A DNA stretch of 64,000 nt from Caballeronia turbans. GTDB taxonomy: Bacteria; Pseudomonadota; Gammaproteobacteria; Burkholderiales; Burkholderiaceae. The DNA is taken from assembly GCA_001544655.2 (NCBI GenBank), contig FCOD02000016.1, positions 1-64,000 on the forward strand. The letters are read 5' to 3'. Position 1 is the first letter of the stretch; the number at the start of each line of letters is the position of its first letter. A model generated the notes under the pieces. It ran no database searches. It saw only the letters and a list, made by a program, of their open reading frames with translations, and was not told where the DNA came from. The translations under genes and the position numbers were made by a program. Positions 41,514-44,213 of the stretch are shown here, in pieces.

Positions 41514-43058
41514 TCAAAGCTGCGGATTGAGCTTCTCGACCTTCGAATGCAGCTTGTTCAACGCGGCGATATAGGCCTTCGCCGACGCCGCGACGATATC
41601 CGGATCGGTGCCGACGCCGTTCACGATGCGCCCGCTCTTCGACAGACGCACCGTCACTTCGCCTTGCGCCTGCGTGCCGGTGGTGATCGCGTTCACCGAG
41701 TACAGCACGAGTTCCGCGCCGCTGCCGACCTTCGATTCGATCGCGTGCAGCGTCGCATCGACGGGACCGTTGCCGCCCGCCTCGCCCGTGACTTCGCTGC
41801 CTTCCACCGCGAAGACGACCTTCGCCTGCGGCTGCTCGCCGGTTTCCGAATGCTGCTTCATCGAGACGAAGCGGAAGTGTTCCTTCGCCTGCGCCTCCGC
41901 CGATTCCTCGGAGACGATCTGCATGATGTCTTCGTCGAAGATTTCGGCCTTGCGATCGGCGAGTTCCTTGAAGCGCGCGAATGCGGCGTTCACGTCGGCT
42001 TCGGATTCGAGCGTCACGCCGAGCTCTTCCAGACGCTGCTTGAACGCGTTACGGCCCGACAGCTTGCCGAGCACGATCTTGTTCGCGCTCCAGCCCACGT
42101 CTTCCGCGCGCATGATTTCGTAAGTGTCGCGCGCCTTCAGCACGCCGTCCTGGTGGATGCCCGACGCGTGCGCGAACGCATTTGCGCCGACGACCGCCTT
42201 GTTCGGCTGCACGACGAAACCGGTGATCTGCGAGACGAGCTTGGAGGTGGGAACGATCTGCGTCGTGTCGATGCCGACATCGAGCCCGAAATAGTCCTTG
42301 CGCGTCTTCACGGCCATCACGATTTCTTCGAGCGACGTATTGCCTGCACGCTCGCCGAGACCGTTGATCGTGCATTCGACCTGACGCGCGCCGCCGATCT
42401 GCACGCCCGCGAGCGAATTCGCGACCGCGAGACCAAGGTCGTCGTGGCAGTGAACCGACCAGATAGCCTTATCGGAATTGGGCACGCGCTCGCGCAACGT
42501 CTTGACGAGGTTGCCGTAGTGCTCCGGAATGCCGTAGCCGACCGTATCCGTGATGTTGATCGTGCGTGCGCCTTCGTCGATGACCCCTTCGAGCACGCGG
42601 CAGAGGAAGTCGATGTCCGATCGGCTGCCGTCTTCCGGCGAGAACTCGACGTCATCGGTGAACTTGCGCGCGAAGCGCACTGCGAGGCGCGCCTGATCGT
42701 AGACCTGCTCCGGCGTCATGCGCAGCTTCTTTTCCATGTGCAGCGCAGACGTGGCGATGAACGTGTGAATGCGGAATTGATTCGCGGGCTTCAACGCATC
42801 GGCGGCGCGCTGGATGTCCTTGTCGTTCGCGCGTGCGAGCGAGCAGACGGTGCTGTCCTTCACGAGCGATGCGATGGTGTTGATCGCGTCGAAATCGCCG
42901 TTCGAACTGGCCGCGAAACCCGCCTCGATCACATCCACCTTCATGCGCTCCAGTTGCTTCGCGATGCGGATCTTCTCTTCCTTCGTCATCGACGCGCCGG
43001 GGGACTGCTCGCCATCGCGCAAGGTCGTGTCGAAAATGATCAACTTGTCTGCTGCCAT
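41514..43058 (-). CDS. leuA: 2-isopropylmalate synthase
   Basis: 514 residues, the LeuA type 1 length. The catalytic barrel has [15 protein letters not shown] (about 10-24) with the metal-binding Asp, ETVGY-like [30 protein letters not shown] with the HxH-type metal ligands, and [14 protein letters not shown]. The C-terminal regulatory domain (about 395-514) binds leucine for feedback inhibition. It condenses acetyl-CoA and 2-oxoisovalerate, the first committed step to leucine. AGGAG lies 6 nt before the ATG. A CTA-rich leader peptide is encoded upstream and probably links expression to leucine supply. Confidence 0.97.
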
Positions 43059-43185
43059 GCTGGGCTCCTGTGGGGAGATTTATCGATTGTTGGGTGAAAA
43101 ACGATAAGGCAAAAGGGAATTCGGGTGTTCGCGCCACCGCTGGCGTCGAAAACCTGAAAGACGAGCAGACGGGAGGCGAGACGAA

Positions 43186-43272
43186 TCAGCGCGGTAGGCG
43201 CGCTAGCAGCGATAGTGCGTGTAGCGACGCACCAGCCGGGAATAGCGAGGAGGGGAACGGGAAAAAGTTCAT
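43186..43272 (-). CDS. leucine-rich leader peptide of leuA (predicted)
   Basis: A 28-codon reading frame, ATG at 43270-43272, TGA at 43186-43188, 127 bp before leuA. It contains six leucines at codons 10, 17, 20, 22, 23 and 26; five use CTA and one CTG. CTA is normally the least used leucine codon in such GC-rich genomes, and E. coli leu leaders also use CUA codons to sense charged tRNA-Leu. The predicted transcription start falls at or within a few bases of this ATG, so the peptide may be translated from a leaderless mRNA. After the stop comes a C/T-rich, G-poor stretch but no classical terminator, so Rho-dependent attenuation is one possibility. Too short to be found by usual gene callers. 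Confidence 0.7.
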   Translation of the reverse strand: MNFFPFPSSLFPAGASLHALSLLARLPR

Positions 43273-43278
43273 TCAAAA

Positions 43279-43307
43279 ACTATAACGGCTTTTAGAGGCG
43301 CGTGCAA
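43279..43307 (-). promoter_or_regulatory. sigma-70 promoter for the leuA leader and leuA
   Basis: Minus strand: -35 TTGCAC (43302-43307), 17-bp spacer, -10 TATAGT (43279-43284). The start should lie near 43272. The 407-bp interval 43059-43465 holds this promoter, the leader peptide, a small CGCCA/TGGCG hairpin at about 43130-43145, and the terminator of the NlpC/P60 gene. Confidence 0.65.
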
Positions 43308-43411
43308 TGAGGCTTTCCGATGGCGCCGTTTGACGTTCCCGGTGACGGGTCCTCGGTATGCCCTGACCGCTTCACACTTGCCGCGCCATTGCGCTGAACC
43401 TGGCGGAAAAC

Positions 43412-43448
43412 AAAAAAAGCCTGCGTCCCTGAAGGAGGCAGGCTTTTT
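43412..43448 (-). terminator. intrinsic terminator after the NlpC/P60 gene
   Basis: AAAAAAGCCTGC and GCAGGCTTTTT arms around a loop of about 12 nt, so a T-run follows on either strand. It begins 18 nt past the hydrolase stop at 43466. Confidence 0.8.
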
Positions 43449-43465
43449 CATATGCTTGATGACGA

Positions 43466-44122
43466 TCAGTAACCGCCGATCGACGCGCTCACACGCTGGC
43501 GCAGTTCCGAGCCATCGCCGACCGGCGCATTCTCGATCCGGCGCGCGCCCTGAAAGCGCTTCTCCCAATAGCCGTCTTCCATGTCGTCGACACGGATCGT
43601 GCTGCCGGTGGACGGCGAATGCACGAACTTGTTGTCGCCGATATAAATACCGACGTGCGAGAACGAGCGGCGCATCGTGTTGAAAAACACGAGATCGCCC
43701 GGCTTGAGATCGGAAACGGTCACCTTTTCTCCGACACGGCTCATTTCCTCCGCGCGGCGCGGCAAGGTCATGCCCAGCGTGTCCTGGAAGACGTAGCGCA
43801 CGAAGCCGCTGCAGTCGAGGCCGGAATCCGGCGTGTTGCCGCCCCAGCGATAGCGCACGCCGATCATGTTGAGCGCGCCGACGACGACGTCGCCCGCTTT
43901 GCTCGCCACGCCGGACAGAAATGACTTTGCACCGCCCGGAGTGCGGGCGGCGTCTGCGCTTGCGTCACTGGATTTACTGGACGAAAAAATGCCGTTGTTG
44001 GCATTTTGGCTACTACTGCTGACTTCATCGGCGAATGCGCCGGAAGTTGTTGTCATCAGAAGGCCGATTAACATACCCGCGGCGGCGCGCGCGCATGTTT
44101 GAGTCAACGTTAGTGGTTGCAT
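43466..44122 (-). CDS. NlpC/P60 (C40) peptidoglycan endopeptidase, exported
   Basis: 218 residues from the ATG at 44122; the frame extends upstream through the promoter, so the longer start is rejected. A signal peptide (AAAGMLIGLLMTTTSGAFAD) ends near residue 31. A Ser/Asn/Ala linker (about 34-66) leads to the NlpC/P60 domain with Cys104 (DCSGFVRY), His156 (FSHVGIYIG) and His168 (FVHSPSTG) as the catalytic triad. The family cuts D-Glu to diamino-acid bonds in murein. It acts in the periplasm during cell-wall turnover. Confidence 0.9.
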   Translation of the reverse strand: MQPLTLTQTCARAAAGMLIGLLMTTTSGAFADEVSSSSQNANNGIFSSSKSSDASADAARTPGGAKSFLSGVASKAGDVVVGALNMIGVRYRWGGNTPDSGLDCSGFVRYVFQDTLGMTLPRRAEEMSRVGEKVTVSDLKPGDLVFFNTMRRSFSHVGIYIGDNKFVHSPSTGSTIRVDDMEDGYWEKRFQGARRIENAPVGDGSELRQRVSASIGGY

Positions 44123-44184
44123 CGGTCGGTAGGTTTTACAATTAAAAGCTGCGAAATCAGGGAGATACGAGAAAGTTTGGAGGG

Positions 44185-44213
44185 ATACTAGCCACAAAGT
44201 ATTTAACTGTCAA
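44185..44213 (-). promoter_or_regulatory. sigma-70 promoter for the NlpC/P60 gene
   Basis: Minus strand: perfect -35 TTGACA (44208-44213), 17-bp spacer, -10 TAGTAT (44185-44190), in an A+T-rich gap that stands out from the surrounding DNA. The predicted leader is about 55 nt. Confidence 0.65.

Follow-up and report, generated by a model that had tools for sequence, protein, structure and literature searches.

What controls leuA in this genome, and can the short frame in front of the gene sense leucine? Within the window, by which we mean the whole 64,000-nucleotide stretch of Caballeronia turbans DNA that was analysed, a small open reading frame rich in the leucine codon CTA lies between a promoter and leuA, and the locus raises the question of how ribosomes reading such a frame could affect the gene behind it. 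Comparison of this locus with its relatives leads us to think it likely that the frame belongs to a leaderless leucine leader-peptide attenuator whose output in the window's clade is proposed to be Rho-dependent.

The leader frame, its codons and its start

All features of the locus lie on the minus strand. The gene itself, leuA (41514..43058), encodes a 2-isopropylmalate synthase of 514 amino acids that scores above cut-off for NCBIfam TIGR00973 and NF002087, and by eye its Shine-Dalgarno sequence is AGGAG (43065..43069). The original prediction placed a 28-codon frame with six leucine codons, five of them CTA, between a promoter and this gene, and the open reading frame listing, the codon count and the alignment all confirm such a frame at 43272..43186 (MNFFPFPSSLFPAGASLHALSLLARLPR). 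Codons 10, 17, 20, 23 and 26 are CTA and the remaining leucine codon is CTG. The promoter that had been proposed, TTGCAC-17-TATAGT, proved exact in its 17-nt spacer and in its coordinates. Its -35 box, TTGCAC (43302..43307), is read from the sequence, and TTGC stands at the matching place, by eye, in most of 40 promoters compared; its -10 box, TATAGT (43279..43284), ends 6 nt before the leader ATG and recurs as TATAGT in 84 of 139 family leaders. A consensus promoter scan requiring at least 9 of 12 matches found none at the leader and did not list TTGCAC-17-TATAGT, so the case for this promoter is made by its conservation in relatives. Further upstream, a strong GC-rich hairpin with a T run (43411-43447, minus strand; GCCTGCCTCCTTCAGGGACGCAGGCTTTTTTT) lies 3' of a gene at 44197..43466, which by eye is NlpC/P60 enzyme-like, and divides that gene from the leader promoter.

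CTA had been taken for the rarest leucine codon of this DNA. Rare it is, with 16 of the 1494 leucine codons in the 34 window open reading frames picked as genes and none of the 35 in this leuA, but it is only the second rarest, because TTA occurs 12 times.

To compare relatives we assembled 190 leuA upstreams, made up of 80 named loci (the best 80 of 581 relatives) and 110 of the 129 places in 150 family genomes, with the other 19 left out. The two sets overlap, and since near relatives, some of them identical, are among them, the upstreams are not independent. Our leader detector, which requires at least one CTA, at least three leucine codons and a -10-like hexamer 6-8 nt before an ATG or GTG, fires in 140 of the 190, compared with 49 of 3800 dinucleotide shuffles. 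CTA accounts for 444 of 880 leucine codons in the leaders versus 21 of 4096 in 110 whole leuA genes. When the 150 family genomes were searched with a CTA-type pattern, 39 matches were obtained, all 39 located 130-177 nt before leuA, and the reversed control gave one. The frame and its CTA codons are conserved in relatives, and the idea that they form a leader survives this check; the leader is missing or CTA-free in 51 of the 190 family upstreams.

Some lineages merit separate mention. In Paraburkholderia of the P. fungorum group (L014, L016, L017, L121, L123, L125, L126 and L128) the leuA leader has decayed, with loss of the start and of the CTA codons; the hairpin described below persists in some of these loci, and five of the genomes bear a CTA-rich leader at long-type LeuA. 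Decay is also seen in part of g10 and g8. Pandoraea-like genomes (L168, L169 and other g10 loci; L022) retain the promoter, the spacing and the open reading frame, with few leucine codons and mostly no CTA.

Evidence that the frame is translated comes from an alignment of 59 distinct Burkholderia, Paraburkholderia and Caballeronia sequences (Burkholderia s.l., the window's clade). All 59 share an aligned leader start and leader stop, and all four distinct gap runs within the frame are divisible by three, versus 8 of 41 after it. Two leader codons are CTA almost throughout: aligned codon 17, which is codon 17 of the window's leader (43222..43224), in 58 of 59 sequences, and aligned codon 23, which is codon 20 of that leader (43213..43215), in 57 of 59. 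Column entropy within the frame is 0.77 at third codon positions versus 0.56 and 0.54 at the others. An amino-acid substitution test for coding was uninformative: the true frame scored 0.22, lower than frame +2 with 0.49 and the other strand, where scores reached 0.96, as may be expected if only the leucine codons matter. Because of this outcome, we base the coding evidence on the start, the stop, the gaps, the leucine codons and the third-position entropy. These support the CTA-rich leader peptide that had been proposed, both as a translated leader and in the conservation of its rare codon.

The distance between promoter and start codon is similarly constrained. Among the 139 leaders returned by our first script, the gap from the -10 box to the start is 7 nt in 82, 6 nt in 52, 8 nt in 3 and 4 nt in 2, so that it is 6 or 7 nt in 134 of 139 family leaders; the same holds for 25 of 33 leaders from deep families of the order. 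Transcription usually starts about 7 nt after the -10 box, and the predicted transcription start therefore falls on the ATG or one base before it. So short a 5' end would leave no room for a Shine-Dalgarno sequence of the leader. The unusual geometry pointed out originally, in which the message would begin with its own start codon, is in this way supported by the spacing. Leaderless messages are reported from start-site mapping in excerpts of studies on B. cenocepacia (PMC4603805) and Cupriavidus metallidurans (PMC7563307); the main text of the B. cenocepacia paper does not mention leuA.

Two kinds of output region

In the region between the leader stop and leuA the relatives fall into two groups. 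A hairpin followed by a U-tract lies between the leader stop and leuA in 34 of 35 Comamonad-like, 20 of 20 Cupriavidus/Ralstonia and 8 of 8 g12 sequences (62 of 63 in total). The same search found such an element in only 1 of 61 Burkholderia s.l., 0 of 9 Oxalobacteraceae-like, 0 of 4 g10 and 0 of 2 other sequences; shuffles gave 46 of 305 for Burkholderia s.l. and 10 of 175 for the Comamonad-like group. In deep families it accompanies 4 of 33 leaders, one of them of Comamonad type. The window has none between its leader and leuA, as had been noted at the outset. On the LeuA tree, where the Comamonad-like rows were labelled as one clade though 1 of the 35 is without a U-tract match, the U-tract label requires nine changes, at least four of them forced by well-supported branches. 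One contig in this tree, L033, is labelled Polynucleobacter sp. (MAG); its LeuA and leader group with Oxalobacteraceae, and it may be mislabelled.

In clades with a U-tract, the leader end complements the terminator's 5' arm; it lies a median of 7-10 nt beyond the first base of the last CTA, and the pairs are CAGGTCGGG/CCCGGCCTG, ACGGGC/GCCCGT and TTGGGGC/GCCCCAG. Taken one by one against shuffles, the complementarity reaches p<=0.05 in 15 of 20, 2 of 34 and 8 of 8 leaders of these clades. A pairing is argued for more strongly by the fact that the two partners vary together from clade to clade. These relatives appear to possess a minimal classical attenuator, in which the leader end just after the CTA run would pair with the terminator 5' arm.

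The window's clade is arranged differently. Directly after the leader stop lies a pyrimidine-rich, G-poor stretch (43152..43185; the first 40 nt after the stop comprise C14 G8 T16 A2), which we regard, jointly with the C-rich leader frame, as a candidate Rho-loading region. It is followed by a hairpin without a U-tract, TTCG-A-CGCCA-GCGG-TGGCG-CGAA (43128..43150), conserved in the alignment and in folding. When Burkholderia s.l. sequences were folded without a ribosome, with one on CTA and with one at the stop, the hairpin near leuA formed in 44, 52 and 51 of 59. No ribosome-dependent RNA switch was predicted in Burkholderia s.l.: in none of the three states did any of the 59 sequences form four pairs between the leader end and the hairpin. 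An antiterminator formed by the leader end and the pre-leuA hairpin, which can be drawn by eye in Burkholderia s.l., is unsupported by folding. Sequestration of the leuA Shine-Dalgarno sequence was rejected as well, its unpaired probability being 0.50-0.53 in all three ribosome states (59 sequences, with pseudoknots outside the folding model). A third candidate, a hairpin at the leader end (GCGC..GCGC) acting as a conserved switch, was dropped because its folding energy does not beat that of shuffles in deep families (mean z -0.01) and reaches a mean z of only -0.49 in Burkholderia s.l.; the GCGCGC stretch at the leader end is retained even where the stop codon moves.

Base composition distinguishes this region from its surroundings. 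In Burkholderia s.l. the C-over-G skew is 0.24 within the leader frame and 0.24 after it, compared with 0.01 upstream of the promoter, and ranked by C excess over G the best 78-nt stretch of the window stands at the 99.8th percentile of 9836 window 78-mers. The mean best 60-nt value of C minus G is 14.5-15.4 in clades without a U-tract versus 7.8-11.9 in clades with one, a comparison that ignores relatedness and in which 3 of 32 deep sequences of the no-U-tract group had U-tract matches. In two U-tract clades, too, C outweighs G over the 40 nt that follow the stop (0.32 in the Comamonad-like group, 0.28 in g12). The window's clade thus has both a C-rich, G-poor transcript stretch and no intrinsic terminator. 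The C excess of the no-U-tract clades fits Rho without proving it, which lends indirect support to the Rho-dependent attenuation suggested originally as a possibility; C-richness is weak evidence for this factor.

Proposed mechanism and alternatives

Sequence comparison establishes the leader with its codons and start geometry, two types of output region and the link to 2-isopropylmalate synthase genes; from these we infer a leucine response, a transcription start and the involvement of Rho and of ribosome masking. Transcription would begin on the leader ATG, or at most two bases away from it, and a ribosome would load on the 5' end of the leaderless message. The speed of translation through the CTA codons would then report charged tRNA-Leu: with sufficient leucine the leader would be finished and transcription would end before leuA, and with leucine short ribosomes would stall on CTA and transcription would proceed into leuA. 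We are highly confident of the leucine-sensor part of this scheme.

The output is proposed more cautiously. Because the window's clade has neither a terminator nor a predicted switch, we suggest that Rho ends transcription there, loading on the C-rich leader and the pyrimidine stretch after its stop, and we give Rho termination in Burkholderia s.l. slightly less than an even chance. Fast transit and weak leaderless initiation would leave the Rho-loading region naked, and ribosomes parked on CTA codons would mask it. Since the stretch after the stop lies outside the reach of a ribosome on CTA, masking would have to involve the C-rich frame itself, and we put this step forward more tentatively than Rho termination.

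One alternative is a classical attenuator with a weak, non-canonical terminator, in which the hairpin at 43150-43128 would terminate without a U-tract, aided by pausing factors, and the leader end would pair with it upon stalling. The hairpin is indeed conserved, it decays by eye in the leader-less Paraburkholderia group, and relatives have true terminators at the same place. We nevertheless find this reading unlikely, since U-tract matches in the clade (1 of 61) fall below those in shuffles (46 of 305), no competing pairing is predicted, and the mean folding z of the post-leader region is only -0.90.

Leader-dependent control of translation is known for other operons, and the leader might govern translation or stability of the leuA mRNA rather than termination. 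The absence of a terminator in the window's clade would suit such a role, as would the proposal, in excerpts of PMC1262725, that Actinobacterial leuA leaders pair with the leuA Shine-Dalgarno sequence. Two results make it quite improbable in our view: the predicted accessibility of that sequence is equal in the three ribosome states, and the closest architecture in relatives is a transcription terminator. That the CTA-rich frame is a product of chance or a relic without present function is very hard to credit, even with the leader decayed in several lineages (among them the P. fungorum group and some of g10 and g8), given the 140 of 190 detector hits against 49 of 3800 shuffles, the retention of CTA in 58 and 57 of 59 sequences with gaps in frame only, and the presence of the same device before a second LeuA gene.

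How does the proposed leaderless leucine attenuator compare with known systems? The textbook case of attenuation is the enteric leader, with its Shine-Dalgarno sequence and hairpin switch, and enteric leu leaders use CUA codons. Like the leader studied here, enteric leuL of the leuABCD operon (Rfam RF00512, Leu_leader) is a short open reading frame of 28 codons with leucine codons, located before leuA; the part of PMC6123439 on E. coli leuL gives 28 amino acids with four leucines. Our leader differs in its leaderless geometry, in the spread of CTA over the frame and in having no Rfam match, and the window's clade differs in having no U-tract terminator or predicted hairpin switch. We describe the leader as one that would work like a leucine attenuator and do not place it in the leuL family, because a U-tract terminator and an antiterminator were sought and not found in the clade. 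Rfam, including RF00512, gave no match at the window leader or at the leaders of 40 relatives' loci; the few sub-threshold matches lie elsewhere, save one to mir-324 on the opposite strand after the L232 leader. NCBIfam and Pfam returned no leader-peptide family for six leaders, and plasmid records no match to the 261-bp region.

Leaderless short-frame attenuators have reportedly been described by Canestrari in 2020 for the polycysteine open reading frames of mycobacteria. Those frames concern cysteine in Actinobacteria, whereas the present leader concerns leucine. In the Rho-dependent tna operon of E. coli, the leader peptide tnaC responds to free tryptophan and stalls at its own stop codon; on our leader, ribosomes are expected to stall at leucine codons upstream of the stop. 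The two are alike in that a leader stop is followed by a candidate Rho-loading site, and excerpts of PMC1262725, which suggest Rho for the Actinobacterial cys leaders, name the tna operon as a model. The LEU element of Actinobacteria, as given in the same excerpts (PMC1262725), is likewise a leader with leucine codons before leuA and no obvious terminator; its leucine codons are proposed to pair with the leuA Shine-Dalgarno sequence in a pseudoknot, whereas at our locus the accessibility of that sequence is constant across ribosome positions. The leaderless trpL of Sinorhizobium meliloti (PMC7298713) shares an attenuator RNA that begins with the leader ATG, and differs in its tryptophan codons, in its alphaproteobacterial host and in the small RNA released by transcription attenuation; ours is a leucine leader in a clade without a U-tract. 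We found no description of this leader in the literature searched; an earlier mention is possible, for example in the most relevant review of attenuators in proteobacteria (Vitreschak 2004).

The comparison points to a leucine leader whose translation begins on the first base of the message, in which a single rare codon stays at set positions and for which no switch can be recognized in several lineages. Sister clades with and without a U-tract terminator share the same sensor, which permits a direct comparison of output change under a constant sensor. Many genomes also gain an unannotated small open reading frame, with a further copy ahead of another LeuA gene. Should Rho be shown to provide the output, amino-acid attenuation would here work without competing hairpins.

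Distribution in Burkholderiales and a second leader

To see how far the leader reaches, we sampled 60 upstreams from 132 genomes of the order with a LeuA match, representing 43 families. Leaders are present in 36 of the 60, 33 from script candidates (including L235, counted although the script found no -10 box) and three recognized by eye (L221, L245 and L262); no leader was found in the other 24, of which L254 is only 95 bases long. The deep-family peptides end in LLLRxAR or a variant, and most of their leucine codons are CTG, which means that the rare CTA is not used universally. At the DNA level these leaders read GCTGCTGCGC..CGCGCGCTAA, followed by a C-rich tract; C makes up 41% and G 12% of the first 30 nt after the stop in 40 deep-family sequences.

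The pattern CTGCTGCGCNNNGCGCGCTRA gave 22 matches in 160 order genomes, one per genome, and one match in the reversed control. All 22 precede a 2-isopropylmalate synthase gene: 17 a leuA matched in the survey of the order, one (G272) a leuA recognized by eye, and four, all in family f36, a long-type LeuA (G184; G257, recognized by eye; and, from their coordinates, G285 and G222).

Long-type LeuA genes (TIGR00970) were found at 18 loci in 15 of 20 genomes looked at. At 14 of these 18 loci an open reading frame with at least three CTA codons lies upstream, versus 25 of 900 shuffles, and in 8 of the 14 a -10-like box additionally stands 7 nt ahead of the start. Among 15 genomes picked for having no leader at the short leuA, 10 carry a frame with at least three CTA codons before long-type LeuA; no replacement leader was found in the other five, of which G202 has a long-type LeuA without such a frame and four have no long-type match. 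No CTA-rich leader was found within 500 nt at six ilvB-, leuC- and ilvD-like loci of the window's own genome.

That genome does carry a second leader, at G000:C48:426494..426417 on the minus strand (locus L288; MSFTQPASLRIIPGRLARPLSLRLA), with four CTA among five leucine codons and the promoter TTGACA-18-TAAAGT-7-ATG, about 300 nt before its long-type LeuA. It is an internal replicate of the original prediction. A broader history can be sketched, in which the leaderless leucine leader is the ancestral control of 2-isopropylmalate synthase in Burkholderiales (in the GTDB sense), acting through Rho and masking without an alternative RNA structure; U-tract attenuators would have been added at least twice, and the device would have moved to long-type LeuA where that gene took over, leaving some genomes, including this one, running two gauges. 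We offer this history as a conjecture that could be right and that we rate as somewhat doubtful.

Two further arrangements were seen before long-type LeuA. In L285, L286 and L287 (g16), two CTA-containing frames stand in tandem. The first, preceded at 7 nt by TATAGT or TATATT, has five or six CTA codons, and the second, which lies closer to the gene, has three; these are perhaps two gauges in series. In L274, a 15-codon frame in which seven of eight leucine codons are CTA lies 404 to 356 nt before the gene; it has no -10 box close to its start, and a second frame with three CTA codons lies after it.
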